A stretch of 64,000 bases of DNA from the NCBI RefSeq assembly GCF_012935695.1, contig NZ_CP052859.1:1963001-2027000 (forward strand), written 5' to 3'. Positions within the stretch are counted from its first letter, which is position 1. Every line of letters begins with the position of its first letter. The translations under genes were made by a program, and so were the position numbers. Shown here piece after piece: positions 30,699 through 54,942 of this stretch. This stretch comes from Pseudomonas sp. ADAK18 (GTDB lineage Bacteria; Pseudomonadota; Gammaproteobacteria; Pseudomonadales; Pseudomonadaceae). The notes beneath the pieces were generated by a model. That model ran no database searches. It saw nothing but the letters and a program-made list of their open reading frames with translations, and had not been told where the DNA came from.

Positions 30699-30733
30699 AT
30701 CAGCAACGGCCTGTGCCGTTGCTGATTTTTTTT
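30699..30733 (+). terminator. Rho-independent terminator after the first DING gene
   Basis: Perfect 12-bp stem ATCAGCAACGGC (30699-30710) / GCCGTTGCTGAT (30715-30726) with loop CTGT and a run of T to 30733. It sits 30 bases after the stop codon, separating the two DING genes or attenuating readthrough. Confidence 0.92.
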
Positions 30734-30794
30734 GCCAGGGGGGTGCCCTCTGATGCGTCACCCCACGGATGAACACCACGAAAGGAATTTGCTC

Positions 30795-41100: not shown

Positions 41101-44100
41101 AGCGGCGACTTGCACTTGGCGGACAGTCACTACGGCATGTTTGCCAAGGAGTTGCCGTCCAAGGCCGTGCTGGTCTGGACGGCCCAGGCGGTTGAAGAAC
41201 TGGCGGGATCGGGTATCGACGTCAAGGAGGGCGACCCGATCGATCAAAAACTGTTGGATGATCTTGGACAGGGCAGTATTGCCGACTTCTGCGCCAGCAG
41301 CCCCTCGTACTGCGCCCTCAAGGCCACGTATGTATGGACCCAGCAGGCTGTGGATGACCTGGCCAGTTCCGGGATCGATGTTCCGCTCGGCGGGGTGATC
41401 GATAACACGTTCCTCGAACAGTTTGGCACCACGGTCGATCAATTCTGTGCCGATACCCCAAGCTACTGCCTCGCGCAAAATGCCAAGGAGTACGGCGCGA
41501 CACCTTCCAGTGCGCGCTTCAGCGTGATCCGCACCGGCACCGGTGACCTGCAACTGTTGAGCGCGGGCAACCTGAGCATGGACTCGTTGTATGGGGTCTA
41601 CACCGCAGGCACATCCTCTGCCAGAACAGCGGCGGGCGATCCTTACAACCAACCCAAGGCACTGGGGCGGGCCGATACCGTGCTCAACGACGACCACAGT
41701 TATTTCGAGCAATTCGTCAACGGTGGCAGTGACAGCCTGTATCGCGCCTGGTACCCGCAGGGGGGTGGAAACCTGACCTTGGCGGTGGGCGGCAACCTGA
41801 CGGGCAACATCGTTGCTCCCACGAGCAATGCGTTCTTGCGGCCTAACCCTCAGGATACCGGTACGGACTCGGCAGGCGTGGGTAACTGGCTGTGGCGTCA
41901 GGGCAGTGCGGGCGTGAACACCGGGGGCAAACCTCAGCCGACAGCCTGGTGGATCAATTTTGGCAGCGTAACGGCGACCGAGGCGGCTGATCAGTTGGTT
42001 GGCTTTACCGGCTTCGGCACCCTGGGCGGTGGTGATCTCGACGTGCAGGTAGGCGGCGATGCCGGCCTGCTGCGACGCATGGCCGGTAGCGCGGTCGACG
42101 GTTTCAGGGTCAACCCGCGCAGCCAAGGATTGGTCCTGGCCGTCGGCAGTACCGGGCGTGTGGCGGCTGACGGCAGCCTGCAGTTGACGGGCGGCGGCGA
42201 TCTGCGTGTGCGCGTCGGTGGCACCTTGAACCCCGCCAGTGACCTGAGTAAGGAACTGCAGAACGGCCTGCTGGTGGACTTGCGTGGCAGCGCGCAGTTA
42301 CTCAGTGGTGCGATGGGGCAGATTGACCTGCGCTATGGCAGTAATAAATCTGACCACAGCCCCGGTGAGACCCGTGCGTTCGATCCATTGCAGGCGACCC
42401 GTGGCCTGGCCACGGGCGGCATGACGCTGGTGCCGGGCGACGCGACCTTCAGCCTCGCCACTTTGGGTGACCTGGTCCTGCAGGACGTAGTCGATCCTGG
42501 TCGTGTGGGGTTGTTGAATACCTCCGCGTTCACCCGGGGCACCCAACACGGTACGGGGACCAGCTGGTTTTCGTTGTGGACCGAGCGCACGGCTATTGAC
42601 CTGTTCTCGGCCGGCGGCAACTTGACGCCTTTCACCGGTATTGCCGCGTCTGACCTGGCGATCGTCTATCCGTCGATCCTTCGGGCGACGGCCGCCAGCG
42701 GCAGCCTCTATTACGGCAAGGCGGCTGCGTCGCAGATGCTGGATGTCACTTATTCTTCACCTTTGCTGCTAGCGCCTGGGGCCAAGAGTCAATTGCAGTT
42801 CCTGGCGCAGGACTCGATTTATGGCGGTGGCCTGTATGTCACCCCTTCGTCTGCCGACCCGGGCATCATGGCTACACCCTGGCAGCCGGCATTTGTCGGT
42901 CAGATTGGCGGTCAGGCAGTGGCGGGTGGCAGTAACCTTTCCGCCAACGGTAACCCGGTGAGCACTGAGGCTTTGCCGCTGTTTGTCTTCGGGGCTGCGA
43001 GTGCGTCATCGGCGTCCACCGCCTTGATGGAACCTGCGCGTTTTTATGCGCTGACCGGTGACCTGCTTGGCGTCAGCAGTGGGCGAGTCATCACCTTTGG
43101 TACCGGCCCCCAGGATGTCCATTCGGGGCAGACCTGGTACGAGGGCGGCGGGCCGGTGTGGATGATGGCGGGGCGCGACATCGTCAGCAGCGGCAGTCGC
43201 TTTGATGACATCGCCAGCCCTCAAGGTGCGCGGTCGCTGGGCAACCTGTTCATCCAGCGTAATCCCAACGATATTTCCGTTATCTCTGCCGGGCGCGACA
43301 TCCTCTACAGCAACTTCCAGGTCGCCGGCCCCGGTACGCTGGAGCTGACGGCCGGGCGTAACATCCTGATGGAGGACAAAGTCAGCATCACCAGCCTCGG
43401 CCCCGTGGTCCCGGGCGATAACCGCCCCGGCGCGAGCATCGTTATGCAAGCCGGTGGCAGCAGCTCGGACTACCGCCGTTTCGTCGAGGCCTACCTCGAG
43501 CCGTCCAACCAACTGGCGGCGGGTGAACCGGTGACCTTGCAAAGCAAGAAAGTCGCCAAGACCTATGAGAAAGAACTGGCCACCTGGCTGGCCGAGCGCT
43601 TCGGGTTTGTCGGCGACACCGACCAGGCCCGTGCCTATTACGCGGCACTGCCGGCCGAGCAACAACGGGTATTTGCCCGTGACGTGTACTTCGCCGAGCT
43701 CAAGGTTGCCGGCCGTGAGTACAACCAGGACGGTGGCGTGCGCCAGGGCAGTTACGTGCGTGGCCGGGGGGCGATTGCCGCGTTGTTCCCGGACAAGGAC
43801 GTGGCCGGTAATCCGATCACCTACAAGGGCGATATCACGATGTTTGGCGGTTCGGGCGTGCACACTGATTTCGGTGGTTCGATCCAGATGCTCACACCGG
43901 GTGGCGGCCAGGTCTTCGGCATCGAGGGCGCCGCACCACCGTCTACGGCTGGGGTGATCACCCAGGGCGCCGGAGATATCCAGCTGTATTCCATGGGCAG
44001 CATCCTGCTGGGTCAGAGCCGGATCATGACCACCTTTGGTGGTTCGATCATGGGCTGGTCGGCCGAGGGTGATATCAACGCCGGCCGAGGCTCCAAGACC

Positions 44101-44670
44101 ACTGTGGTGTATACGCCGCCTCGGCGGATCTATGACAACTGGGGTAACGTCAGCCTGTCGCCATCGGTGCCGAGTACCGGTGCGGGTATTGCCACGCTTA
44201 ACCCGATTCCAGAAGTACTGGCGGGGGATATCGACCTGATCGCACCGTTGGGCACCATCGATGCGGGAGAGGCGGGAATTCGGGTGTCGGGCAATATCAA
44301 CATTGCGGCGTTGCGGGTGGTGAACGCGGCGAATATCCAGACTCAGGGCAAGTCGTCCGGGGTGCCGGTGTCGGCGGCGGTGAACACCGGGGCGATGACC
44401 TCGGCCAGTGCGGCGGGGGCGGCGGCGTCCCAGGCGGCGGAAGATGCGGCGCGTAATCAGCAGGCGGCGGCGCGCCAGGGCAGGGCGTCGATTGTCACGG
44501 TTGAGGTGTTGGGGTTTGGCACGGAGCCGGTGCAGCGTGGGCCGGATTCGGCTTCGACGTCGCCGGTTTATAACCCGGACAGTCCGGTGCAGGTGCTTGG
44601 GGCTGGGCCATTGAGTGACCAGGCGCGGGCGCAGTTGACGGATGAGGAGCGGCGGCAGATCAGTTTGTAG
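32125..44670 (+). CDS. pdtA: Giant two-partner-secretion exoprotein (TpsA, PdtA-like)
   Basis: A 4181-residue secreted beta-helical protein. It has an extended signal peptide (residues 1 to about 42), a spacer, then a TPS secretion domain (about 105-290: ILNWETFNVGRNTTVDFQQQ, MIMNRNGVVFSGSSQVNVRNLVA). Thousands of residues of filamentous-haemagglutinin-like repeats follow. The end (about 3770-4130) resembles the DUF3739 region of HxuA/HMW-like adhesins (GDIDLIAPLGTIDAGEAGIR). Cysteines are rare: C4, C2030/C2035 and two CxxxxxxC pairs (3056/3063, 3108/3115) inside a duplicated segment. AAGGA precedes the ATG by 10 bases. TpsB is two genes downstream. In P. aeruginosa PdtA is made under phosphate limitation; the same is inferred here. 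Confidence 0.9.
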   Translation: MVRCKPPVNVNAQGPGGQTILRLKPLAHAIALLLVAGSAQGATAFSSGWFAAKGASQAATAARPGAQMLGMPPPLSQQTRVNQQLQRSLSTLNTSVAAIAAQQAAQAAGRQAAFGQVSSIPDGLGKGGLQVDNSLTQGWTNAKGPVQNQAGGKTTVTIEQTADKAILNWETFNVGRNTTVDFQQQSNWAALNRVNDPNGRPSEIQGQIKGAGTVMIMNRNGVVFSGSSQVNVRNLVAAAATITDEQFTQRGIYVDANGTQPTFTEAAGKVEVQRGALIQTHAAATSTDSGGYALLLGSEVENAGTIITAKGQTTLAAGDSFYIRRGVGTAGNHKSTTRGNEVATSLKAGSTSGQVSNSGLIMASTGDITLTGHHVQQNGVALASTSVETRGTVHLLNSATDSSGSVTLGQGSTTAILLDSSGSSALNSQRENGLVNLDGLPNNLITGAFNHLSTVSDRTDQSRIEIVSGGTVDFQKGSITLATGGQVAVSAGQRSLVRDGALIDVSGAVGVKVAMEANNIKINVQGNEQRDAPVNRDGGKLINNDVWVDLRELVFVPAGTNGYATDRWYTAGGLLEVGGYLGTQGHSVGEWMAQGGTVTFTGKDVVTQQGAQINLSGGTVDVQGGYIQQSWLKDATGRLYELSKAPGDILYTGFYKGYEDTSARWARTDLYYNPLIASQRRYEAGYTVGRDAGKLVIGTAGAVLEGQLISEVFQGDRQTLAPAINLDGYQQSQKAAAQRAQLIIGSYTPIYNKATGTLRYNLSPTTNEVLIEGKPQKIADGLDLSTALPTERQGKLVLDSDQLNGYQLGAIKVGAKQQIEVNGALKVANGGDITLFGPRALVNANLTANSGSLNVGNVLNQVDLNRANTVGDVTLAPTAGTQAWVKVAQGVTLDASGRWNNLALEASDASGVAYTNGGKVSLRSSGDVTLANTSLVNAASGATIGLDGKASGGKGGNVTLSALGALGMGGDIHGYGINGGGTLALQARKVLIGDDASATDTGTLKLAGDFFDKGFSAYDITGNEGLIVADGTRVDVSQPVYRLGDQASTTPSGSDPAAILEPWTPPLYQEDAVKGVLTQRRGAGLTLTAGHLESSAAQLASAALTVGQGAVISVDPGQAISLLSVGQLTLNGTLSAWGGNVSLGGLTVPVSEAVNAVGHNRSIWLGEHALIDVTARAATAVDNRGRNYGLVREGGKISVGGEIDLATGIAKASDLFVVVRDGARLEASGTQALLNVPGQGMLQVASNGGSISLVSNNGLYLDGSLIARAGGAGAAGGSLAVGLESPYYTKNGVTDRVLHGRELVLGQTHQTNEPGATAQTAADRLEYGHGRLGVDQVRAGGFDNLALLSNGLLSFEGDVSLNVGQSLRLYSGAFNLSETAASDSRVNLSAPYLLLAGILAPPESKDQYVRAVVANGVPSLRASEAQFNADADLLDVRGSVMFGSKGNLHQADNSLVMVERRGFDRVQLTSQGDLRFLAGAGPNVVATGVSTQLLTQGDMTLRAAQLYPGTDVGARVIAGYQGASSAFDPTRTLTIGRTHNSDPALPYSAFGRLKLEAANIRQGGVVRAPLGLIDIGSQGSNQVQLLPGSLTSVSGKGLVLPYGGTVDGQVYQYNGKTVTFLGQGAVANDATELSVGVILGGKSVSVLPDATLDLSGGGELLGAGFISGRGGSTDARYNPLVQFGANSGFVLPGLATNPVYAIVPGTQPAAASVAAEGGAVAPLIGQQVTIGAGVPGLPAGTYTLMPSTFALMPGAFRVEVNGLAGLGSDAATQQMRNGSWSTAGHLSIANTAISSSTASQLILTSADTLRRYSQYNETGYAQFARADATRLGVPRPMVEADAKTLKLALRPGSGAEAFSFQGIGRFDAASGGYGGTVAALNMSNSGLEVVKADQPASHSFSGVTLNADSLNALSAARLMLGGLTGVMYGQSGNYITLVSGVNEPRGSIILREGATLAAPEVFLVSNTGEILLEQGASINTLGRGKASYDAGDGFIYQVANMLAVSNGLLNVVSKTQPPGVVSGGVKIGVCASVACSGQTALYSEGSIVALTDKTFELGDQVRYGTRHLNLGVNTINLGSAQALTDVAGNRLPPGLTLTQPLLDRLLRGDTQLGAPALETLQLSARDSVNFYGSTTLDTYDPVTGKSLLSNLMLSTPAIYGAGGRDDVATIHTANLIWQGASTPAGAVIAGGAGTGSGRLDINAQRIEFGYGAFAQPSTTKSFDRLALGFANVNLNASERITANHKGSLSVYQRQGAYDPVTGFQYSGGDLTIRTPLMSGEGGSVNRITAGGAIDVLASAGSRGTVSGQGAELALQGDSIRLASAVVLPSGKVSLNARGDVVLSDGSLIDVAGHAITFNDVTKYSWGGDVLLDSRTGNILQAAGSTLDLSAQHNQAGKLRAVAVDAAGGIVDLQGRILGSSSGEYDAGGTLMPYQAGTVEIQAQRMGRSGLLDQQFAALNQRLNEGQVFGARSFQLKQGDLTLGSGLKASNINVSVDRGSLRVNGLVDASGTRVGSINLAARDGLTLDSSAVLDAHGSRLRVDSYGKIIDSPNRAMVVLSSGDGVLTLADGVRIDLRHGTEAVKGNDGRSRGTLELNAPRLAGVDGTLNDIAIDARGRLDIQGARSIALNGMARYDDAALKNDATASGRPYQVIDQVYLDGKHALSTAFINAVLLNEDLLQNKLAGLNNATYADVFHLRPGVEIVSKTPDGDLVVQGDVDLSGYRYASLNPHTQKTSVYGSGESGSLTLRAGGDLNIYGSINDGFAPPPPTAEDKGWVLLPGVDFTGGDIVVPANGVTLADGTAFPAGTMLNYDLPIKGLTVAAGTRLPVRATLDQALVLPAGTVLSAAVLDASGNLLLAAGTLLDSAQILVVGTQLEAGTLLVGGTRLRAMIWPKGVPLPSVHLAPNAASNIVSLNGNVALPRGALIPSGTNVKLPGNAESVQLRPEVAGRQGQLWAIAPMLAEGSQSWSLRLVAGADTEAADSRILQAAPRSGDLHLADSHYGMFAKELPSKAVLVWTAQAVEELAGSGIDVKEGDPIDQKLLDDLGQGSIADFCASSPSYCALKATYVWTQQAVDDLASSGIDVPLGGVIDNTFLEQFGTTVDQFCADTPSYCLAQNAKEYGATPSSARFSVIRTGTGDLQLLSAGNLSMDSLYGVYTAGTSSARTAAGDPYNQPKALGRADTVLNDDHSYFEQFVNGGSDSLYRAWYPQGGGNLTLAVGGNLTGNIVAPTSNAFLRPNPQDTGTDSAGVGNWLWRQGSAGVNTGGKPQPTAWWINFGSVTATEAADQLVGFTGFGTLGGGDLDVQVGGDAGLLRRMAGSAVDGFRVNPRSQGLVLAVGSTGRVAADGSLQLTGGGDLRVRVGGTLNPASDLSKELQNGLLVDLRGSAQLLSGAMGQIDLRYGSNKSDHSPGETRAFDPLQATRGLATGGMTLVPGDATFSLATLGDLVLQDVVDPGRVGLLNTSAFTRGTQHGTGTSWFSLWTERTAIDLFSAGGNLTPFTGIAASDLAIVYPSILRATAASGSLYYGKAAASQMLDVTYSSPLLLAPGAKSQLQFLAQDSIYGGGLYVTPSSADPGIMATPWQPAFVGQIGGQAVAGGSNLSANGNPVSTEALPLFVFGAASASSASTALMEPARFYALTGDLLGVSSGRVITFGTGPQDVHSGQTWYEGGGPVWMMAGRDIVSSGSRFDDIASPQGARSLGNLFIQRNPNDISVISAGRDILYSNFQVAGPGTLELTAGRNILMEDKVSITSLGPVVPGDNRPGASIVMQAGGSSSDYRRFVEAYLEPSNQLAAGEPVTLQSKKVAKTYEKELATWLAERFGFVGDTDQARAYYAALPAEQQRVFARDVYFAELKVAGREYNQDGGVRQGSYVRGRGAIAALFPDKDVAGNPITYKGDITMFGGSGVHTDFGGSIQMLTPGGGQVFGIEGAAPPSTAGVITQGAGDIQLYSMGSILLGQSRIMTTFGGSIMGWSAEGDINAGRGSKTTVVYTPPRRIYDNWGNVSLSPSVPSTGAGIATLNPIPEVLAGDIDLIAPLGTIDAGEAGIRVSGNINIAALRVVNAANIQTQGKSSGVPVSAAVNTGAMTSASAAGAAASQAAEDAARNQQAAARQGRASIVTVEVLGFGTEPVQRGPDSASTSPVYNPDSPVQVLGAGPLSDQARAQLTDEERRQISL
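40490..40920 (+). repeat. In-frame imperfect AGT-L repeats within pdtA
   Basis: Residues about 2790-2930 of PdtA consist of a short motif, roughly aliphatic-x-AGTxL, repeated about nine times (FPAGTMLN, VAAGTRLP, LPAGTVLS, LAAGTLLD, LEAGTLLV, VGGTRLR, IPSGTNVK). It interrupts the ordinary haemagglutinin-type repeats and is much more hydrophobic. Confidence 0.65.
41167..41490 (+). repeat. Duplicated cysteine-pair module within pdtA
   Basis: Two copies of about 52 residues: VWTAQAVEELAGSGIDVKEG through DFCASSPSYC, then VWTQQAVDDLASSGIDVPLG through QFCADTPSYC. Each carries a CxxxxxxC pair and an Asp/Leu-rich, probably helical, body. It is unlike the surrounding beta-helix. Confidence 0.8.
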
Positions 44671-44698: not shown

Positions 44699-44726
44699 GG
44701 GCGATCATTGATCGCCCATTTTTTTT
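44699..44726 (+). terminator. Rho-independent terminator after pdtA
   Basis: GGGCGATCA (44699-44707) and TGATCGCCC (44709-44717) form a near-continuous palindrome followed by A and eight T. It lies 28 bases after the pdtA stop, so phdA-pdtB need their own promoter. Confidence 0.9.
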
Positions 44727-44739
44727 GGGGTTGGGTTGG

Positions 44740-45690: not shown

Positions 45691-45711
45691 CCCCCCTCCA
45701 ACAACCCCCGA

Positions 45712-45775: not shown

Positions 45776-45832
45776 TTGAGGAGGCCGCAAGGCAACTTTC
45801 CGGCCAGTGACAAGATGCCAGGAGTGGAGCAA

Positions 45833-46444
45833 ATGGGCACTATGGAACGCTACTCGAAAGTGGGTATGCAGGAGCTGGATCAGCGCCTGTCAAAAATCGT
45901 CGAAGCCGCCCGAAAAAAGCCGGTCTCGGTCTATCGCTACGGCGCACCCTGGGTCTGGATCGTCTCCCAGGACGACTGGCAAGGCGCCTTGAAAGAAGTC
46001 TCCAGCTACATCCCCGCAGGCCACTCGCTGGTGCTGCTGCGCCCGCAGATCGACGACGTGTTCGACCAACACCGCGACCTGCTCCAGGCCCTCAACGTCG
46101 AGCCCGGTCTGGTGATCGCGCCGCGCACAGTGCTGCAAGTCCTCCTGCTGCAACTGCTCTATTCAGTGCCCAGCGAGCAGCAACTGCACGAGCAGCTCAA
46201 TTACAACCTGCTGTTCCGCTGGTTCGTCGGCTTGGACCTGAGCCAGAAAGTCTGGAGCGCCACCACCTTGCGGCGCGACATCGCCACGCTGCTGGACGAC
46301 CCGCGCGCGGTACAGCTGATCCAGAAAATCATCGGTGAAGTGTTCTGCGGCGCCTTGCTGCACATGCCGGAGTTCTCGCTGAACTTCGCCCTGCTGCACA
46401 CCTGGCTGGCGCGTCACGGCGCTACCTCGACCACTAGCAATTGA
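45833..46444 (+). CDS. phdA: PhdA-like hybrid: Phd-antitoxin domain fused to IS5-type transposase N-terminus
   Basis: A 203-residue protein. Residues about 4-52 look like a Phd/YefM antitoxin DNA-binding domain (YSKVGMQELDQRLSKIVEAA, then KPVSVYRYGAPWVWIVSQDDW). Residues about 95-165 match the DUF772 N-terminal domain of IS5-family transposases (VLLLQLLYSVPSEQQLHEQL, NLLFRWFVGLDLS). No DDE catalytic domain follows, so it is not a transposase. ATG 45833 has AGGAG 8 bases upstream. It has its own PHO-box promoter and overlaps the reading frame of pdtB. Its place between tpsA and tpsB matches P. aeruginosa PA0691. Function is unclear; a regulator of the secretion locus is one possibility. Confidence 0.8.
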   Translation: MGTMERYSKVGMQELDQRLSKIVEAARKKPVSVYRYGAPWVWIVSQDDWQGALKEVSSYIPAGHSLVLLRPQIDDVFDQHRDLLQALNVEPGLVIAPRTVLQVLLLQLLYSVPSEQQLHEQLNYNLLFRWFVGLDLSQKVWSATTLRRDIATLLDDPRAVQLIQKIIGEVFCGALLHMPEFSLNFALLHTWLARHGATSTTSN

Positions 46445-46518: not shown

Positions 46519-48141
46519 GTGGAGCATCTGTTCAAGTCAACGTGGCCGCTCGGTACCGGGCGTTGCCTGGCGCTGTGCTGGTTGGCGCTGGGGGCGCTGG
46601 CGCAGCCGGTGCAAGCTGAGGAGGAGGGCGCCCAGCCTGAGACACCCGCGCGTCTGGTGGACGTCAATGAGTACTTCGTGCGCGGTAATACCGTACTTGA
46701 TGCGCGGGCCATCGAGGAGGCGGTGTATCCGTTTCTGGGGCCGCAAAAGTCCCTGGGGGATATCGAAGGCGCCCGTGATGCCTTGCAGAAGATCTACCAG
46801 GAACGTGGCTACCAGTCGGTGTTTGTCGAGCTGCCGGAGCAGAAGGTCGATGACGGCATCGTCTACCTGCAGGTCAGCGAAACCAAGGTGGGCCGGGTAC
46901 GGGTGGTGGGTGCCAAACATTATTCGCCGGTAGAAATTCGCGATGAAGTGCCGGCGTTGAAGGAAGGCGCTGTACCGGATTTTGCCCGCGTGCAAACCCA
47001 ACTGGCCGGCCTCAATCGGGGGGCCGGGCGCCAGGTTACGCCGCTGGTTCGCGAAGGCCAGCGCCCGGGCACCATGGACGTTGATCTGCAAGTGGAAGAC
47101 CAGAATCCCTGGCACGCCAGCATCGGCCTGAACAACGACTACAGTGCCGACACCGAGAAGCTGCGCAGCGTTGCCACCCTGGGTTACGACAACCTCTGGC
47201 AACTGGGCCACAGCATTTCCCTGACCTACTTCACCGCACCCCAGGACAGTTCCAATGCCAAGGTCTGGTCGGGTTCCTACAGCGCACCGCTGAACGAGCG
47301 CTGGACCCTGCAATTCTCCGGTTATCAGTCCGATAGCAATATCGCCACCATCGGCGGCAGCAATGTGTTGGGCAAGGGCCATTCCTATGGTGTGTCGGCA
47401 ATCTACAACCTGCCGGCCAGCGCCAACTGGGCCAACTCCTTGTCGGTGGGCGTGGACTTCAAGGACTTCGACGAGCAGATGCGTTTCGGTGGCAGCAGCG
47501 ACCAGATCCCGCTGAAGTACGCGCCAATGACCTTTGGCTACAACGGCTTTCGCTACAACGAAAACTCGCAGTTGGGGCTTGGCCTGAACCTAGTGGTCGG
47601 CACCCGCAGCTTTTTCGGCTACGGCAGCGACGACAAGGAATTCCAGTACAAACGCGACAAGGCCAGTGCCAGTTTTGCCGTGCTCAAGGGCGACCTGAAT
47701 TACACCTACACCTTCGCCAATGACTGGCAATCGGCATCCAAGGCCGGTTTTCAGTTGGCGTCCGGGCCGCTGGTTTCCAACGAGCAGTATTCCGCCGGTG
47801 GCGCCACCTCGATACGTGGCTACCTCGCTGCCGAGCGCACCGGGGACGAAGGCTTCCTGTTGTCCCAGGAGCTGCGCACGCCCTCCCTGGCCAAATTCCT
47901 CAGCAGTTATGTGCAGGAGTGGCGCTTCTATGCGTTCGCCGAAGGTTCACGCCTGCGCCTGCACGACCCGCTGCCCGAGCAGGAAGACGAATACAGCCTG
48001 GCCAGTGTCGGCCTGGGCACCCGCGCCAGTTTGAGTAAATGGTTATCCGGCAGCCTGGATTGGGGCTACCCGCTGCTTGATGGACCGAACACCCAGAAAC
48101 AGGACTCGCGACTGCACTTCAGTGTGCAGGCGACTTTCTGA
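46519..48141 (+). CDS. pdtB: TpsB outer-membrane transporter (ShlB/FhaC family, PdtB-like)
   Basis: A 540-residue Omp85-superfamily protein that should secrete PdtA across the outer membrane. Signal peptide is residues 1 to about 33 (WLALGALAQPVQA). Two POTRA domains follow (about 40-190: VNEYFVRGNTVLDARAIEEA; ETKVGRVRVVGAKHYSPVEI), then a 16-stranded barrel with the loop-6 motif as SIRGY near residue 430. It ends in a phenylalanine (VQATF), as barrel proteins do. GTG 46519 is chosen because a G-rich ribosome site precedes it and a good signal peptide follows; the frame is open from a TTG at 46441 that overlaps the phdA stop. Confidence 0.9.
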   Translation: MEHLFKSTWPLGTGRCLALCWLALGALAQPVQAEEEGAQPETPARLVDVNEYFVRGNTVLDARAIEEAVYPFLGPQKSLGDIEGARDALQKIYQERGYQSVFVELPEQKVDDGIVYLQVSETKVGRVRVVGAKHYSPVEIRDEVPALKEGAVPDFARVQTQLAGLNRGAGRQVTPLVREGQRPGTMDVDLQVEDQNPWHASIGLNNDYSADTEKLRSVATLGYDNLWQLGHSISLTYFTAPQDSSNAKVWSGSYSAPLNERWTLQFSGYQSDSNIATIGGSNVLGKGHSYGVSAIYNLPASANWANSLSVGVDFKDFDEQMRFGGSSDQIPLKYAPMTFGYNGFRYNENSQLGLGLNLVVGTRSFFGYGSDDKEFQYKRDKASASFAVLKGDLNYTYTFANDWQSASKAGFQLASGPLVSNEQYSAGGATSIRGYLAAERTGDEGFLLSQELRTPSLAKFLSSYVQEWRFYAFAEGSRLRLHDPLPEQEDEYSLASVGLGTRASLSKWLSGSLDWGYPLLDGPNTQKQDSRLHFSVQATF

Positions 48142-48165
48142 CCCTTTTGACGGAGATCCCTTCAC

Positions 48166-49977
48166 ATGCAACGCCTATTTCTGAGCCTGTTGATCTGCCT
48201 GGGTTTCGTACTCCCGGCCACCGCCCATGCCTGGTGGCAGGACGATTGGCACTACCGCAAACAGATCTCAGTGGACACCACCGCACAAGGTGCGGCGATC
48301 AGCCAGGCCCTGGGTCGTACTGCGCTGTTGGTGCGCCTGCACACCGGTAACTTCACCTTCGACGGGGTCAAGGACGACGGTTCCGACCTGCGCTTTGTCA
48401 GTGCCGATGATAAGACCGTGTTCAACCACCAGATCGAAAGCTTTGACCCGTTGATGGGCATGGCATTGATTTGGGTCGACGTGCCCAAGGTCGAAGGCGC
48501 CCAGCGCCAGGACCTGTGGATGTACTACGGCAACCAGAAGGCGGCGGCCACGGCCAACGGCCAGTTGACCTTCGATCCGAACTACACCGCGCTCTACCAT
48601 TTCGACGGTTCCAACGGTATGCCGCCACGGGACACCACGGCGTATGGCAATACCGCGTTGAACGCCACCGGTGCCAGTATCGACGGGGTGATCGGCCGCG
48701 CGCTGCAGTTCAGCGGCCAACCGTTGCTGTTGCCGGCCAGCCCATCGTTGCAGCACAACGCTGGCGAGGCTTTTACCTTTAGCGTCTGGTTGCGTCTGGA
48801 CCAGGCCAGTGGCGAGCAAGTGGTGCTGGCCCGTCGCGAAGGCACCCAGAATCTGTTGCTGGGCTTGAACCAGGGCATGCCGTTTGTGGAAATCGACGGC
48901 CAGCGAGCGGTCTCGACTCAGCCGTTGAATCCGGGGCAATGGCAGCACTTGGCGTTCACCGCCGAGGGCGAAAAAGTCACGCTCTACGTCAATGGGCGCG
49001 AAACCGCGAGCCTCGCGGCGGCGGTGCCGGCGTTCAATTCACAAATGGCGATTGGCGCCGACCTGCCAGCGGTAGCCGGTGCGCCTGCCAGCACTTACTT
49101 GCCGTTCACCGGCGCCATGGATGAGCTACGCCTGTCCAAGGTCGCGCGTCCTGCCAGCCTGTTGTTGGCTGATGCCAGCGCCCAGGGCGCCGAGTCGAAA
49201 CTGGTGGTCTATGGCGTCGATGAAGAACAGTCAGGCTTCGGTTTTGGCAGCCTGGGCTTCTTGCTCAAGGCCGTGCCGATAGACGCTTGGGTGATCATCC
49301 TGGTGCTGGTGGCGATGATGTTCCAGTCGTGGGTCATCATGTTTCGCAAGAACCGCATGGTCGGCCGGGTCAGCAGTGCCAACGAGCTGTTCCGCGAGCA
49401 GTTCGCACAGATCGGTACGCGCCTGGAAATGTTCGCCGACGACCAGCAGTTGGCAGAGCGCCTGAACCATTCTTCGCTGTGGCGCCTGTACCTGGTGGCG
49501 GTCAAGGAGATCCGTACCCGCCGCGCTCAGGGCGCTGACACTTCGTCGGTATCAGCGGCGACTATCGAAGCCATCCGCTGCTCCATGGACGGTGTGCGCA
49601 CCCGCGAGAACCAGCAACTGAGTTCCAAGCTCTCGACCCTGTCCAACGCGATTGCTGGCGGGCCTTACATCGGCCTGCTCGGGACGGTGCTGGGGATCAT
49701 GGTGGTGTTCCTCGGCACGGCCATGGCCGGTGACGTGAACATCAACGCCATCGCCCCAGGCATGGCGGCGGCCTTGCTGGCCACGGCCATGGGGCTGTTC
49801 GTCGCGATCCCCGCGCTGTTTGGCTACAACCGCCTGATTACCCGCAACAAGGAAGTCAGCGCCGACATGCGCGTATTCGTCGACGAGTTCATTACCCGCT
49901 TGGCGGAGATGCACGGCGAGAGCCAGTCCAGTGAATCGGCGCATCAACGTGCCCACCACGCCGCCTTGCCGGCCTGA
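48166..49977 (+). CDS. DUF2341/LamG-like domain fused to ExbB/TolQ/MotA proton channel
   Basis: A 603-residue inner-membrane protein. It starts with a signal peptide (1-22, ATAHA) and an exported part: a DUF2341 domain (about 20-130) and a concanavalin/LamG-like jelly roll (about 150-345: ALYHFDGSNG, FTFSVWLRLDQ, GQWQHLAFTAEGEKVTLYVNG). A first membrane helix (about 370-390) leads to a cytoplasmic segment, and the ExbB channel helices lie at about 495-518 and 531-556 (GPYIGLLGTVLGIMVVFLGT). Ordinary ExbB is about 240 residues, so some 350 residues are an N-terminal addition. It should form the proton-driven motor with the next two proteins; the lectin-like domain may bind glycan or peptidoglycan. 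Confidence 0.9.
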   Translation: MQRLFLSLLICLGFVLPATAHAWWQDDWHYRKQISVDTTAQGAAISQALGRTALLVRLHTGNFTFDGVKDDGSDLRFVSADDKTVFNHQIESFDPLMGMALIWVDVPKVEGAQRQDLWMYYGNQKAAATANGQLTFDPNYTALYHFDGSNGMPPRDTTAYGNTALNATGASIDGVIGRALQFSGQPLLLPASPSLQHNAGEAFTFSVWLRLDQASGEQVVLARREGTQNLLLGLNQGMPFVEIDGQRAVSTQPLNPGQWQHLAFTAEGEKVTLYVNGRETASLAAAVPAFNSQMAIGADLPAVAGAPASTYLPFTGAMDELRLSKVARPASLLLADASAQGAESKLVVYGVDEEQSGFGFGSLGFLLKAVPIDAWVIILVLVAMMFQSWVIMFRKNRMVGRVSSANELFREQFAQIGTRLEMFADDQQLAERLNHSSLWRLYLVAVKEIRTRRAQGADTSSVSAATIEAIRCSMDGVRTRENQQLSSKLSTLSNAIAGGPYIGLLGTVLGIMVVFLGTAMAGDVNINAIAPGMAAALLATAMGLFVAIPALFGYNRLITRNKEVSADMRVFVDEFITRLAEMHGESQSSESAHQRAHHAALPA

Positions 49978-49988
49978 GGAGAACCATC

Positions 49989-50414
49989 ATGGCTTCCGTG
50001 AATGCCTCCCACGACGATGACGACGACGCCGCTGTCGACAGCATCAATATCACGCCCCTGGTGGACGTGCTGATGGTGGTGCTGGTGATGTTCATCCTCA
50101 CCGCTACCGCCCAGGTCTCGGGAATTCAGATCCACCTGCCCAAGGCCAGCGCCTCGGTGTCGTTGTCCGAGGCTAAGACCAAGGCTATTTCGGTGAATGA
50201 CGGCGGCCAGGTGTTCCTCGACGCCTACCCGGTAACCCTCGGCGAGCTGGAAGAGCGCCTGCGTATCGAGAAAGCGCAGAACCCGGACTTCCCGGTAATC
50301 GTGCGCGGCGACGCCATGGTGCAGTACCAGAAGGTGATCGAGGTGCTCGACTTGCTGCGGCGTCTGGAGCTGTCGCAGGTCGGGCTGGTCACCGGCAAAC
50401 CGAGCCAGGGCTGA
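49989..50414 (+). CDS. exbD: ExbD/TolR-family biopolymer transport protein
   Basis: A 141-residue protein with one transmembrane helix (about 19-41: NITPLVDVLMVVLVMFILTA) holding the conserved proton-carrying Asp of the LVDV motif, then a periplasmic ExbD domain ending in RRLELSQVGLVT. GAGGAG lies a few bases before the ATG and the gene begins 11 bases after the ExbB fusion. Together they should convert the proton gradient into motion of the TonB-like partner. Confidence 0.93.
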   Translation: MASVNASHDDDDDAAVDSINITPLVDVLMVVLVMFILTATAQVSGIQIHLPKASASVSLSEAKTKAISVNDGGQVFLDAYPVTLGELEERLRIEKAQNPDFPVIVRGDAMVQYQKVIEVLDLLRRLELSQVGLVTGKPSQG

Positions 50415-50417
50415 GTG

Positions 50418-51125
50418 ATGACTGCACAGATGCCGATCCCGCCTGTACCGGTGAAGAACAAGCCGCTGCTGCGCCCACTGAAGTGGGGCGCAGGTCTGCT
50501 GCTGGGTGCCGTGGCCGCCTGGTTTCTCTGGCAATGGGCCAATGACATGAGCGGTGTGCGCCGCGAAGCGCCCAAGGTGCCGATGATTATCCCGTTGCCG
50601 CCACCGCCACCGCCACCGCCGGAAAAACCCAAGGAGCCCGAGCCCAAGGTGGAAGAGAAGATCCCCGAGCCGGAACCCACACCTGCACCCGAGGAGGTCA
50701 AGCCCGAGGAACAGGCGCCCCCGTCTCCGGCCGACGACCTGGCTAACCCGATGCAGATCGACGGCGATGCCCAGTCCGGCACCGACGGTTTCAACATCGG
50801 CGCGGGTAAAGGCGGCGGCATGGCAGGTTCCGGTGGCGGCGGTCTTGGCACCGGAACGTTCAAGCAGTACCTGGCGGGCGTTTTCCAGCGCCTGCTGCGC
50901 GAAGACCCCGAGTTGCGCAAGAAGGCCTACACGGTGCAGGCCGACCTGTGGCTGAGCGCGGACGGCGAGGTGACCCGCGTGGAATTGGCCAAATCCAGTG
51001 GAGATGCCGATACCGACGCCCAGGTAGTGGCGGCACTGCGGGCTACGCCACGCCTGAAAGAACGTACGCCGGCCTCTCTGACCCTGCCGGTACGCCTGTC
51101 CCTCAAGGGCCGGCGACCGGATTGA
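50418..51125 (+). CDS. TonB-like energy-transducing protein
   Basis: A 235-residue protein with one N-terminal membrane helix (about 18-38), a proline-rich periplasmic span (residues about 55-105, with seven prolines in a row and many Glu-Pro and Lys-Pro pairs), a glycine-rich hinge, and a C-terminal TonB-like domain (about 155-235: VQADLWLSADGEVTRVELAKSSGD). ATG 50418 starts directly after the exbD stop; the in-frame GTG at 50415 is also possible. No TonB-dependent receptor lies in the window, so the outer-membrane partner may be the nearby porin, PdtB or a distant receptor. Confidence 0.87.
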   Translation: MTAQMPIPPVPVKNKPLLRPLKWGAGLLLGAVAAWFLWQWANDMSGVRREAPKVPMIIPLPPPPPPPPEKPKEPEPKVEEKIPEPEPTPAPEEVKPEEQAPPSPADDLANPMQIDGDAQSGTDGFNIGAGKGGGMAGSGGGGLGTGTFKQYLAGVFQRLLREDPELRKKAYTVQADLWLSADGEVTRVELAKSSGDADTDAQVVAALRATPRLKERTPASLTLPVRLSLKGRRPD

Positions 51126-51166
51126 TCGAACCCTTTTTTGCAGTTCTCTACAGGAGTTGTGTGCAG

Positions 51167-52867
51167 ATGATTTCCCATGTGAATCGATTGACCCTGGCGG
51201 TCGGCATGGTCATTGCGACCCTGGTCGGCCAGGCGACGGCAGCACCTGCCGCGCCCTCGGAAAACGCCACGATCAACCTGATCCGCCTGCTGGTGCAGCA
51301 GGGTGTACTCAAGCAGGAACAGGCCGACGGTCTTATCGCCCAGGCCGAAAAAGAAGCCCAGCAAGCCCGCCAGGCCAGCACCGCCACGGCAGTCGCGGCA
51401 GGTCCTGCGACGGCCCCGGGGGATGTGCGGGTGCAGTACGTGCCGGCGGCGGTGCGCGATCAGATTCGCGATCAGGTCAAGGCCGAAGTCATGGCCACCG
51501 CCAAACAGGAAAACTGGGCCCAGCCCAATACCTTCCCCGATTGGGTCTCGCGCATCAGCTTCGACGGCGACATTCGCCTGCGGGACGAATCGCGCTACTT
51601 CTCCGGCAACAACAGCAATGAAATTGTCGACTACGCCAAGCTCAACGACTCGGGCCCTTACGACGTCAACAAGGACACCAACAGCCGGCTGCCGCCCTTG
51701 CTCAACACCCGGCAGGACCGCTCCAACAGCATGCGTCTGCGGGCGCGGTTGGGCATGAAAGCGGTGGTGGCGCCGGACTGGACCGCCGGCATTCGTATCG
51801 GCACCGGTTCCGACAACAATCCGGTGTCGACCACCCAGGCCCTCGGTGGCGGCTTTGGCAAAAAGGATATCTGGCTCGACCAAGGCTACCTGACTTGGAA
51901 GGTCACCCAAGACCTGACCCTGACCGGTGGACGGTTTGCCAACCCGTTCTTCTCCACCGACATGATGTATTCCAACGACCTCAACTTCGACGGTGTGGCG
52001 GCGCTCTTCAACCACAAGCTCAGCAGCGATTGGGACGTGTTCGGCACCCTCGGTGCGTTCCCGGTGGAGTACAGCTCCGACACCGCCAGCAACAATGGCC
52101 TGGACAAGGAAGACAGCGACAACAAGTGGCTGTTCGGCGGCCAGATCGGCGCCAACTGGAAGATCAATAACACGAACAGCCTCAAGGGTGCGTTGGCCTA
52201 CTACCGCTTCGACAGCATCGAAGGCCAGCGTTCCAGCCCTTGTGCACCGTGGGCCGGGCAGCCGAGCTGTGACAGCGACGGCTCGCGCTCGGCCTTCATG
52301 CAAAAGGGCAACAGCGTGTTCCTGCTGCGCAATATCAGCGCCAACCCGGCCACGCCTGGCCTGACCCCGCAGCCACAGTACGTGGGCCTGGCCTCCAAGT
52401 TCGACGTGCTGGACCTCAACCTGGTCTGGGACAGCGAGCTGGCGAACGACTTCAAGCTGCGCAGTCAGACCAACTTCATTCACAACCTGGCCTACGACAA
52501 GGGCGAGATGCTCAAGCGCAGCGAAGGCGAGATCGTCAACAACATCAACCGCGATGGCCAGTTCGAAAGCGGCGCCAACGCGATGATGGTGCAGTTCACC
52601 CTGGGCCGCGCGCTGGAGATGAAAAAGGCCGGCGACTGGAACGTATTGGCGGGCTACAAGTACATCCAGCCGGACGCCTTGCCCGATGGTTTCAACGACT
52701 CTTCATTCCACCTCGGTGGTACCAACGCCAAGGGCTATTTCATCGGCGGCAACTACGGCATCGACAAGAACATCTACGCCAGTGCTCGTTGGCTCAGCGC
52801 CTCCGAAGTGTATGGCGCACCGTTTGAAGTCGACGTCATGCAACTGGAACTCAACACGCGCTTCTGA
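51167..52867 (+). CDS. Putative outer-membrane porin (Porin_5 family)
   Basis: A 566-residue protein with signal peptide (residues 1 to about 26, GQATAAP). A short helical segment follows (about 32-70: IRLLVQQGVLKQEQADGLIAQAEKEA), like those used for trimerisation or peptidoglycan contact. A large beta-barrel with repeated aromatic strand ends comes next, and the last residue is Phe (LELNTRF). ATG 51167 is supported by CAGGAG 10 bases upstream; the frame runs further back inside the tonB-like gene but is not coding. It is in the middle of the operon and might take up a nutrient or serve as partner of the TonB system. Confidence 0.83.
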   Translation: MISHVNRLTLAVGMVIATLVGQATAAPAAPSENATINLIRLLVQQGVLKQEQADGLIAQAEKEAQQARQASTATAVAAGPATAPGDVRVQYVPAAVRDQIRDQVKAEVMATAKQENWAQPNTFPDWVSRISFDGDIRLRDESRYFSGNNSNEIVDYAKLNDSGPYDVNKDTNSRLPPLLNTRQDRSNSMRLRARLGMKAVVAPDWTAGIRIGTGSDNNPVSTTQALGGGFGKKDIWLDQGYLTWKVTQDLTLTGGRFANPFFSTDMMYSNDLNFDGVAALFNHKLSSDWDVFGTLGAFPVEYSSDTASNNGLDKEDSDNKWLFGGQIGANWKINNTNSLKGALAYYRFDSIEGQRSSPCAPWAGQPSCDSDGSRSAFMQKGNSVFLLRNISANPATPGLTPQPQYVGLASKFDVLDLNLVWDSELANDFKLRSQTNFIHNLAYDKGEMLKRSEGEIVNNINRDGQFESGANAMMVQFTLGRALEMKKAGDWNVLAGYKYIQPDALPDGFNDSSFHLGGTNAKGYFIGGNYGIDKNIYASARWLSASEVYGAPFEVDVMQLELNTRF

Positions 52868-52885
52868 CGCGCAGGGAGACACCCC

Positions 52886-53521
52886 ATGAACACGCGAATT
52901 TGCGGCCTGTTACTGGTGATTGGCAGCCTGGCCGCCACCGGCGCCTCGGCCGAGGGCATGGAGGAGCGCCTGCGCACTCAACTGCGTAGCACCACCGCCC
53001 AGTTGCAGGCCTTGCAAAGCGAGCAGGCCCAGGCCAGTGCTGCGCGCATCGCCGCCGAGAACCAGGCCAAGCAGGCTCAGGCGCAGATCAAGCAATTGAC
53101 TGGCGAACTGGACAAGGCCCGAGGTGTGGCCGAACAACTGGTGGGGCAGCAGCAGAGCCTGCACAGCCAGGCCCAGGCGCAGGTGTCGGCCAGCAATGAA
53201 CAGACCGGTAAGTTCAAGAAAGCTTATGAAGAACTGTTGGTGCTGGCCAAGGGCAAAGAGACCGAACGCGCGCGGTTGCAGGTGCAGTTGAGCGAACGTG
53301 ACACACAAGTGCAGCAATGTTCAGCCAAGAATCAGCAGATGTACGGCGTGGCCCAGCAGTTGCTGACGGCCTACGAAAAAATCGACGTGGCCGAGGTCAT
53401 GAGCATTCGTCAGCCGTTCGCCAGCGGCGCACGGGTCAAGTTCGAAGAGCTGGCCCAGGGTTTTGGCGACCAGCTGTACCAGAGCCGCTTTGACGCGCCC
53501 CAGGCTGTCGTCAATCACTGA
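52886..53521 (+). CDS. Periplasmic coiled-coil protein
   Basis: A 211-residue protein with a signal peptide (1-22, ATGASA). A long Gln/Ala/Glu-rich coiled coil (about 27-150) follows and then a short globular tail (VMSIRQPFASGARVKFEELAQGFGDQLYQ). I recognise no enzyme family. AGGGAGA precedes the ATG. It lies 18 bases after the porin gene and 21 before the YbjN-type gene, in one operon. A scaffold or spacer role between membranes is plausible from its shape only. Confidence 0.8.
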   Translation: MNTRICGLLLVIGSLAATGASAEGMEERLRTQLRSTTAQLQALQSEQAQASAARIAAENQAKQAQAQIKQLTGELDKARGVAEQLVGQQQSLHSQAQAQVSASNEQTGKFKKAYEELLVLAKGKETERARLQVQLSERDTQVQQCSAKNQQMYGVAQQLLTAYEKIDVAEVMSIRQPFASGARVKFEELAQGFGDQLYQSRFDAPQAVVNH

Positions 53522-53542
53522 TCAACCAGGAAGCGATAAACC

Positions 53543-54013
53543 ATGAGCGAATTGATCACCAGCGTGACGCCCCAAGGCCTGACCGAGTTGCTGCAAGAAG
53601 CCGGCTACCGGGTCAACCAGACCGAACAGAACGGCATCGTGCAACTGCTCAGCGCCAGCCAGGGCATCGGCTTTGCCGTGCGGTTTGGCAACCCGGCAGC
53701 AGAGCAGGGCAGCTACATGGACTTCACCTACAGCTGCGCGCTGCGGGTCCAGGGCCAGTTGCCGGAAGGCCTGGCACAGGTGTGGAACGCTTCCCGGCGT
53801 TTTGCGCGGTTGTCATTGCAGGGTGAATTCCTGCTGATGGAAATGGACGTGGTGGTGGGCGGCGTTGGCGCCAGTCATCTGCGCAGTCAGCTGGAGCTGT
53901 GGGATCGGCTGTTGCAGGAGTTCATCGTTTACCTGCGTGAGTACAGCCAGAATGCCGCGCAACTGGCGGACGCGTCCTCTGTTGATACCCGTGAAGAGGC
54001 GCCGGCCCTGTGA
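53543..54013 (+). CDS. YbjN-domain protein
   Basis: A 156-residue cytoplasmic protein with the YbjN/type III chaperone-like alpha-beta fold: TPQGLTELLQEAGYRV opening, then a central sheet (LLSASQGIGFAVRFG; MDFTYSCALRV) and a C-terminal helix. YbjN-type proteins are small chaperone-like proteins of uncertain role. The stop overlaps the start of the next gene by 4 bases, showing translational coupling. It might chaperone an exported protein of this locus. Confidence 0.78.
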   Translation: MSELITSVTPQGLTELLQEAGYRVNQTEQNGIVQLLSASQGIGFAVRFGNPAAEQGSYMDFTYSCALRVQGQLPEGLAQVWNASRRFARLSLQGEFLLMEMDVVVGGVGASHLRSQLELWDRLLQEFIVYLREYSQNAAQLADASSVDTREEAPAL

Positions 54014-54942
54014 AAAAGCCAACCCTGGTGATCGGCACTGGAGCACTGCTGTTGCTGGTGGTAGCGGTTACGCTGGCCCTGCGCCCGGGCAGTGATCCGG
54101 TGGCCGCCCAGCAACCGGCGCCCGTCCTCAATGATGGACCTGCTGTGGCGCGCTTGGGCAATCAACAGGTGGCGCTGGCGGAGCTCAAGGCCTTGTTGGC
54201 GACCTTGCCGGTGGAGTCTCGTGAGCAACTGCGGGGCAATCGTGGTGCCCTGGAAACCTGGATCCGCTCGCGACTGGCGCAAAAGGTCGTGCTGGAGCAG
54301 GCCGATGCCCAGGGCTGGCGCCAGCGCCCGGAAGTGGAGCAACAAACCCGCGCCGCCACCGAGCAGATTGTGTTTCGCGACTACATGCTGTCGGTCAGTC
54401 AGGTTCCAGCCGACTACCCAAGCGAGGCGGAACTGCAACAGGCCTATGACAGTGGCAAGGCTGGCTGGGTGACCCCGCCGTTGTACCGGATCAGTCAGAT
54501 ATTTCTCGCGGTGAATGACCCACAAAGCCTCGACGCGGTGCGCCGCCAGGCCCAGGAACTGAGCCGCAAGGCGCAGGCGGCACCGGGTGAGTTCGCCGCG
54601 TTGGCCGGGCAGTACTCCCAGGATGTCGACAGTGCCCCGCGCGGCGGCGATTCTGGTTTGCAGCCGTTGCAGCAACTGGTGCCAGAGGTACGGGGCGCTG
54701 TCTCGCGGCTGAAAGTCGGCGCGGTGTCGGACGCGGTACAAAGTGCTGCGGGCTTTCATGTGCTCAAGCTCACCGGGCAACAGCCGGCAGGCACCGCCAG
54801 CCTCGAGGACCTGCGCGAGCGCCTGACCCAGGCCTTGCGCGCCCAGCGCCAGGAACAGATCGCCAAGGCGTACCTGGAGGGCATGCTTAATACCGCGACC
54901 TTGAGCATTGATGGCGCCGAACTGAACAAGGTTCTGGACTAG
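54010..54942 (+). CDS. Parvulin-type peptidyl-prolyl cis-trans isomerase
   Basis: A 310-residue membrane-anchored or periplasmic foldase. An N-terminal hydrophobic helix (about 5-24) is followed by a SurA/PpiD-like helical region and one parvulin domain (about 155-260: LYRISQIFLAVND, AGQYSQDVDSAPRGGDSGLQP, SDAVQSAAGFHVLKLTG). It starts with GTG overlapping the upstream stop. Its place at the end of the operon suggests it assists folding of PdtA, PdtB or the porin in the periplasm. Confidence 0.9.
   Translation: MKKPTLVIGTGALLLLVVAVTLALRPGSDPVAAQQPAPVLNDGPAVARLGNQQVALAELKALLATLPVESREQLRGNRGALETWIRSRLAQKVVLEQADAQGWRQRPEVEQQTRAATEQIVFRDYMLSVSQVPADYPSEAELQQAYDSGKAGWVTPPLYRISQIFLAVNDPQSLDAVRRQAQELSRKAQAAPGEFAALAGQYSQDVDSAPRGGDSGLQPLQQLVPEVRGAVSRLKVGAVSDAVQSAAGFHVLKLTGQQPAGTASLEDLRERLTQALRAQRQEQIAKAYLEGMLNTATLSIDGAELNKVLD

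Follow-up and report, generated by a model that had tools for sequence, protein, structure and literature searches.

Textbooks present type V secretion as protein export that draws on no energy source, yet one widespread subclass of two-partner secretion (TPS) is hardly ever found without a proton motor of its own; we describe it here from a window of Pseudomonas sp. ADAK18 DNA (the whole stretch analysed, 64,000 nt; NZ_CP052859.1, positions 1,963,001 to 2,027,000). The closest described relative is the PdtA/PdtB system of P. aeruginosa, part of the PUMA3 regulon, in which phdA, pdtB, exbB2D2, tonB4 and PA0696-PA0701 lie under one promoter and pdtA alone under another (PMC4971064). It is a known operon; in the available excerpts on it, the TPS is called functional and the motor was "still uncharacterized" in 2020. 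PUMA3 homologues accompany TPS, ExbBD and PA0696 homologues in six bacteria listed in a 2009 paper (P. fluorescens, two strains; P. entomophila; B. vietnamiensis; R. palustris; Janthinobacterium), and in R. palustris and Janthinobacterium a tpsA follows three of four clusters, while a tpsB with exbBD follows the remaining one (PMC2729926, as excerpted). As single cases, therefore, neither the linkage of TPS to a motor nor the presence of several tpsA genes for one tpsB-motor set is new.

From phdA up to the PpiC and LysR genes, the window agrees with the P. aeruginosa operon in gene content and gene order (Table 1). It differs in having no PA0700 counterpart between ppiC and the LysR gene; its VreA cassette lies elsewhere in the genome, and no Hxc component of a type II secretion system (T2SS) was recognisable among 10 proteins scanned from 16-32 kb of the window; the last two points were the grounds for rejecting a P. 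aeruginosa origin of the window. The original prediction, made from the letters of this DNA, had joined pdtB to an operon encoding an ExbB fusion, ExbD, a TonB-like protein, a porin, a coiled-coil protein, a YbjN-type protein and a foldase. Sequence analysis, with a Pfam scan for most of the proteins, bore out the coordinates and identities of this gene set (46519..54942, + strand) and the absence of a TonB-dependent receptor, of which there was none among 10 scanned operon and flank proteins; the set should be extended upstream by the giant TpsA gene and two PBP_like_2 genes. Intergenic gaps from pdtB onward are 24, 11, 0, 41, 18, 21 and -4 bp.

What is new here is that the coupling between the TpsB/TpsA pair and the motor is general and near-exclusive. 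In contrast to the P. aeruginosa account, we place the motor as part of a conserved system with TpsAs that bear a DUF3739 domain, so that DUF3739, the DUF2341-ExbB fusion and Porin_5, for which we found no function described, become parts of one system. A literature search covering few subscription journals found no paper on a general TPS-motor coupling, on the TpsA tail or TpsB N-terminus described below, or on DUF3739, and a 2025 paper, as excerpted, treats DUF2341 as an unexplained appendage of ExbB-type proteins. We read the system as a proton-driven branch of TPS, an envelope machine that would handle DUF3739 TpsAs, perhaps through a grip of TonB4 on their tails, and put the chances of this reading at about even. 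Such a subclass would break the no-energy rule, or would show a motor acting on a finished exoprotein in its anchoring, its release or the handling of cargo.

To describe gene order in relatives, we used 80 named loci, the best 80 of at least 531 confirmed stretches ranked by similarity to the window's ExbB fusion, a ranking by which close relatives are over-represented. By record title these comprise 25 Pseudomonas, 21 Alphaproteobacteria, 27 other Pseudomonadota, 6 Verrucomicrobiota and 1 Myxococcota, the last seven being metagenome bins. A tpsB stands directly upstream of exbB in 73 of the 80, 70 found by script and three more (L099, L130, L133) where an over-long exbB open reading frame (ORF) had hidden it. 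The seven exceptions have a tpsA upstream (L140, L147, L150, L151), a TpsA piece further up (L149), a contig end (L142) or the tpsB downstream (L143). Porin, ExbD and TonB genes are present at 77, 76 and 72 loci, respectively. Genes were mechanical ORFs, some of them antisense and some with over-long starts, labelled with hidden Markov models built from 4-21 members (from one for YbjN), so that the counts for the coiled coil (53/80), PpiC (52/80) and YbjN (41/80) are lower bounds. A TpsA piece lies within the stretch at 41 loci; among the other 39 genomes, 36 of the 38 that could be searched have DUF3739 elsewhere, and the two that do not are bins (L127, L134). As a control, 13 canonical ExbB/TolQ stretches (8-20 kb; 11 from motor-bearing genomes) contained no TpsB, DUF3739 TpsA or Porin_5. 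The gene order is far beyond chance.

One of the two conditions under which the original prediction was to fall, a motor and tpsB that co-occur in no more than a few close relatives, does not hold: they occur together across Pseudomonadota, in Verrucomicrobiota bins and in one Myxococcota bin. In an ExbB tree from which 20 near-identical pseudomonad loci were excluded, the Verrucomicrobia fusions make up a separate, long-branched clade, which does not look like simple contamination, but the Myxococcota fusion groups with Magnetospirillum, so that transfer or mis-binning is possible there. The nearest relatives of the window's own fusion are those of other Pseudomonas (92% to L072).

Phyletic distribution gave the same picture in a class sample of 274 genomes and a phylum sample of 398, some genomes being common to both. 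In the class sample, a full ExbB fusion occurred in 17 genomes, DUF3739 above cut-off in 18 and full-length Porin_5 (E<1e-100) in 19, with overlaps of 16 (fusion-DUF3739), 17 (fusion-porin) and 18 (DUF3739-porin); the corresponding Fisher p values, with genomes treated as independent, are 8e-23, 4e-25 and 3e-27. These counts omit 18 genomes with only partial Porin_5 matches (best 1.8e-34), a sub-cut-off DUF3739 match in G223 and a 1,632-aa DUF2341 frame in G101, which was not taken as a fusion. Both DUF3739 genomes that lack a full fusion (G101 and G200; stretches L184 and L187) carry parts of the motor operon where contigs end, and in G104 the fusion starts 434 bp into an 8.6-kb contig; these exceptions look like assembly gaps. 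Read from gene orders, a tpsA or tpsB adjoins exbB or lies one gene off in 14 of the 17 fusion genomes (divergently in G249); G010 has tps genes within the same 50 kb as the fusion, and in G136 the TpsA is 18 kb away. All 13 DUF2341 genomes of the phylum sample, their matches being frames of 577-735 aa counted without one-by-one confirmation as ExbB fusions, are among the 14 with DUF3739. Could the linkage reflect co-regulation only, with unrelated envelope genes grouped under one sigma factor and PhoB? The single P. aeruginosa promoter reported for phdA to PA0701 would fit such a grouping, but the coupling holds in class genomes without a match over both VreA domains (at most nine candidates scored per genome) and where TpsA and motor lie apart (18 kb in G136; also Hyphomicrobium and Alcaligenes), and we consider it very improbable.

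One TpsB-motor-porin set can accompany several TpsA genes located elsewhere. The Hyphomicrobium genome (L123) has seven DUF3739 genes, one motor and one TpsB, which is located at the motor, and Bradyrhizobium altum has four with one motor and one TpsB (matched in two pieces). Alcaligenes endophyticus has six (one a fragment; seven matches) with one motor and two TpsBs, and Burkholderia Bp8963 three with one motor and three TpsBs. DUF3739 genes and motors number three and two in Achromobacter pestifer, two and two in Sphingomonas S2M10, and two and one in B. hereditatis. Among 20 fetched stretches around such client TpsA genes, several of which ended at contig ends, none held a tpsB. The client proteins share a TPS domain and a C-terminal DUF3739, in frames of ~3,300-5,100 aa where not cut. 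Like classical TPS (FhaB/FhaC, type Vb), the class combines a TPS domain with a TpsB of POTRA and ShlB/FhaC type; unlike classical TPS, it has a dedicated motor and porin, the DUF3739 domain and tail, a mostly short segment before POTRA1 and, in some genomes, several TpsAs per TpsB.

The main rival to a secretion machine is uptake through the porin, on the plan of Haemophilus influenzae HxuCBA, with the TpsA as surface catcher and the motor opening the porin in place of a receptor (for phosphate compounds in Pseudomonas). Several observations favour it: Porin_5 is coupled as tightly as the motor, PBP_like_2 genes stand beside pdtA, a related secreted gene stands beside the tps genes of relatives, and the P. 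aeruginosa regulon is reported, in excerpted sources, to be Pho-controlled. HxuCBA also supplies a precedent for TPS genes tied to a Ton-driven outer-membrane step (review, as excerpted), but HxuC is a TonB-dependent transporter, and none stands beside the TPS pair in this operon (10 proteins scanned). The AlphaFold2 (AF2) model of the porin shows 16 long strands, three N-terminal helices and no plug domain to gate, and where up to seven TpsAs share a single porin, it would have to be a general uptake pore. No uptake or catabolic family was recognised in the recurrent neighbour clusters that were scanned, a minority of the clusters. Pho-box-like sites are few (best score of at least 11 of 14 at 7/81 tpsB and 2/37 tpsA starts; shuffles 1.7% and 2.2%), and control by phosphate may therefore be limited to a minority of loci, which also narrows the alternative in the original prediction of nutrient acquisition under phosphate stress. 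We regard uptake as unlikely. The best Protein Data Bank (PDB) match of the porin model in Foldseek is OmpM1, an attachment porin of Veillonella; the model has N-terminal helices, and the protein has no S-layer-homology domain among its Pfam matches; identity to OmpM1 is 15% and the TM-score 0.42 by query length. Porin_5 was also considered as a general porin and rejected, full-length members occurring only alongside the system in the class sample.

Beyond the DUF3739 solenoid, the TpsAs continue into a linker rich in small residues and then a motif like S-I-V-T-V-E-V-L-G-F-G, which in our judgement resembles a TonB box; in 8 of 58 tails, just two residues follow the matched part. A regular expression for this motif matched 57 of 58 DUF3739 TpsA tails, the sole miss being a frameshifted piece. 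Background was low: among 635 C-termini taken from other mechanical ORFs the expression matched 1, it matched 0.8% of shuffles, and in 34 TpsA bodies it occurred 0.005 times per 110 residues. The expression was written post hoc and replaced a first one that matched 49/58 tails and 52/635 other ends. The motif is missing from all three TpsAs without DUF3739 in the ADAK18 genome, two of which, together with the start of the third, carry the Pfam TPS domain. In the AF2 model of the PdtA C-terminus, the solenoid is mostly confident (~90) and the motif scores 36-41.

The translocators of this class also appear distinctive. PdtB matches CdiB and TpsB4 among PDB structures, with a ShlB score of 91 bits compared to 302-324 for three other ADAK18 TpsBs (the fourth, a partial match, scores 34). 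We aligned 84 motor-linked TpsBs, two of them cut at the N-terminus, and measured 81. Most run from a signal peptide through a short linker into POTRA1; over all 81, the distance from hydrophobic core to POTRA1 is 4-95 residues (median 18) and does not exceed 30 in 64, and the PdtB segment is short too. By eye, three of the four other ADAK18 TpsBs have a charged, helix-like segment of ~45 residues before POTRA1, which probably corresponds to the plug helix of FhaC. Most linked TpsBs would appear to have little room for this usual N-terminal plug helix.

Pfam places ExbB, ExbD and a TonB C-terminal domain together in the operon. As in the Ton and Tol-Pal motors, there is an ExbB/TolQ channel, an ExbD with a transmembrane (TM) aspartate and a TonB_2 domain; the ExbD aspartate and two ExbB threonines, presumably channel residues, are invariant or nearly so in our alignments. 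Unlike those motors, ExbB is fused to DUF2341-LamG, and none of the 10 scanned operon and flank proteins is a receptor, TolB or Pal. The ExbB2 channel part is nearest TolQ among solved structures, and NCBIfam scores it at 153.6 bits for TolQ and 78 for ExbB, both below cut-off. This closeness to TolQ, by structure and by score, would suit another explanation, in which the tail is read by the POTRA domains of TpsB or by the barrel-assembly machine (strand addition) while the motor has another role, for example bracing the envelope in a Tol-like way as a very large protein is exported. POTRA domains also bind strands, and the porin resembles OmpM1, an envelope tether. Other large ADAK18 TpsAs (3,504 and at least 1,651 aa), however, have no fused motor in the surrounding 5-20 kb stretches, so size alone does not demand a motor, and we hold this explanation to be distinctly improbable.

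Under the preferred reading of a proton-driven TPS branch, TpsB would export the exoprotein N-terminus first, so that the DUF3739 cap and flexible tail would come last and stay periplasmic at least for a time. The C-terminal domain of TonB4, a fold that binds short strands such as TonB boxes, might then grip the tail motif, and ExbB2-ExbD2 would pull or re-set the tail by proton flow and so gate, anchor or release the exoprotein. Among solved structures the porin comes closest to an outer-membrane attachment porin; it could serve as a dock in the outer membrane or as a route for cargo. The coiled coil, the foldase and the LamG domains, which ExbB topology places in the periplasm, might hold or chaperone the chain. 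In lineages with VreA-sigma-FecR cassettes, the TonB-like domain of VreA could read the tail as well and report to transcription; a profile of VreA matches TonB4 by way of its C-terminal half. The envelope machine for giant PdtA that the original prediction envisaged gains strength from the near-exclusive co-occurrence, the many TpsAs per motor and the shared tail.

Several observations weigh against this reading. The SxxxH motif in the TM segment is needed in TonB and TolA; it was found in 0 of 87 TonB4s, of which 18 have any histidine in that segment (taken as the most hydrophobic stretch within the first 110 residues), and in its absence TonB4 may couple to the motor differently. In 17 of the 81 measured TpsBs, POTRA1 starts more than 30 residues after the hydrophobic core. 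The fused motors of L042, L047 and L048 lie apart from tps genes; in one control stretch (G000), a classical TpsA ends ~8 kb off and its TpsB lies 13 kb off, just outside the stretch. The extra TpsBs of Burkholderia Bp8963 and Alcaligenes could serve some clients, and the second Alcaligenes TpsB is ~7 kb from the DUF3739 fragment. The tail expression was composed after viewing sequences, and in frozen form it matched 14 of 20 fresh tails; by eye, five of the six misses keep the shape (four with R for E/Q) and one does not. In excerpted sources, TPS translocation has been reconstituted without energy for other systems (review), VreA is dispensable for VreI activity, and an insertion mutant in PA0695 (a tonB homologue) with VreI over-produced is as virulent in zebrafish as the wild type.

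A bolder version holds that a single plug-less TpsB, an ExbBD-TonB motor and a docking porin form a distinct proton-powered secretion class serving interchangeable giant exoproteins, each known by its C-terminal TonB-box-like strand, and that VreA reads the same tail, so that the exoprotein would be the missing "receptor" of PUMA3-type signalling. We find this possible but doubtful. The system as a whole bears on what VreA, the PUMA3 regulator with a TonB-like domain, binds. The ADAK18 genome has a VreA-sigma-FecR cassette at 2.81 Mb, 0.8 Mb from the window's locus, with STN, sigma-70 region 4 and FecR above cut-off. VreA-like genes were labelled in 9 of 20 client stretches (eight distinct genes, as L165 and L166 share one), and the two that were scanned matched STN and TonB_2, both below cut-off. 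Among 120 clustered loci, FecR-like genes occur in 24 and extracytoplasmic function sigma factors in 23, and each cluster holds the Pfam-confirmed gene of L152. VreA was rejected as a core part: with at most nine candidates scored in each of the 274 class genomes, a match over both of its domains was seen only in G000. Pho boxes, found at a minority of loci, are unsupported as a general feature, though above shuffles at tpsB. At the tpsB starts of Luteibacter (L107, L111) there is a Pho-box-like site that differs by one base from that upstream of the window's pdtA.

Table 1. Features of the TPS-motor locus in the Pseudomonas sp. ADAK18 window
Feature	Coordinates	Strand	Evidence
PBP_like_2 protein (LapA/PA0688-like by position)	29509..30669	+	Pfam PF12849 6.3e-21
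Second PBP_like_2 protein (PA0689-like by position)	30732..31958	+	PF12849 3.1e-21
PdtA, TpsA exoprotein, 4181 aa; TPS domain 144-408, DUF3739 3972-4082	32125..44670	+	PF05860 1.4e-26, PF12545 3.2e-38
PdtA tail motif, residues 4122-4132, after low-confidence, probably flexible linker	44488..44520	+	motif regular expression; pLDDT ~36-41 (AF2)
Terminator-like hairpin with T run, 3' of pdtA	44699..44717	+	pattern scan
PhdA-like protein (longest ORF, start unsure)	45776..46444	+	DUF772 PF05598 3.3e-15; Phd_YefM PF02604 2.8e-5, below cut-off
PdtB, TpsB translocator, short segment before POTRA1	46519..48141	+	POTRA_2 PF08479 1.2e-17; ShlB PF03865 5.3e-25; CdiB 6wim 4.4e-8
ExbB2: hydrophobic signal peptide-like N-terminus, DUF2341, LamG, ExbB/TolQ channel	48166..49977	+	DUF2341 4e-20, Laminin_G_3 5.7e-20, MotA_ExbB 2.6e-26
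ExbD2, conserved aspartate in TM segment	49989..50414	+	PF02472 3.4e-29; alignment
TonB4: TM segment, Pro-rich spacer, TonB_2 C-terminal domain	50415..51125	+	PF13103 1.6e-6; TIGR01352 28.5 bits (cut-off 27.1)
Porin_5: 16 long strands, three N-terminal helices, no separate plug domain	51167..52867	+	PF16930 1.8e-207; AF2; Foldseek OmpM1 3.9e-15
Coiled-coil protein (PA0697-like by position)	52886..53521	+	relatives occur downstream of porin in other loci
YbjN-family protein	53543..54013	+	PF10722 1.2e-8
PpiC-type foldase, N-terminal hydrophobic segment	54010..54942	+	PF00639 8.3e-17

A pattern scan of 44.6-56.1 kb placed one terminator-like site on the + strand within the operon, a weak one inside ybjN (53780-53807), in addition to the clear one that follows pdtA; the whole scan gave 16 such sites against 10.7 expected, and no sigma-70-like promoter. 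Between pdtA and phdA lies a nested palindrome of ~1 kb (44733-45696) with inverted arms of 86, 78, 76 and 52 nt that are 83-90% complementary. Relatives of the PhdA-like gene occur in eight clustered loci, including Achromobacter and Alcaligenes, and its DUF772 is a transposase domain.

Among the relatives, a PEP-CTERM protein and a PBP_like_2-type secreted protein adjoin the tps genes in ~10 class genomes (L052:4339-6832 and relatives); for the gene of ~500 aa beside the relatives' tps genes, one of two scanned members matches PBP_like_2 below cut-off (24 of 27 bits). Sixteen loci share a small Ala-rich protein of ~134 aa whose start is signal-like; its gene in L100 (18607-19011) lies downstream of ppiC. 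In L042 (8919-12043) and L048 (8006-10905), an ExbB fusion, ExbD and TonB stand beside ATP-synt_ab genes (V/A-type ATPase-like), and these two stretches have no porin or TPS gene beside the fusion copies. In L047 (9051-11895), a fusion-ExbD-TonB set directly follows T2SS genes D, E and F and a DsbC-like gene; all three loci fall to one side of a branch in the ExbB tree. Elsewhere in the window, positions 2598-9941 on the - strand hold a single ORF of 2,447 aa.

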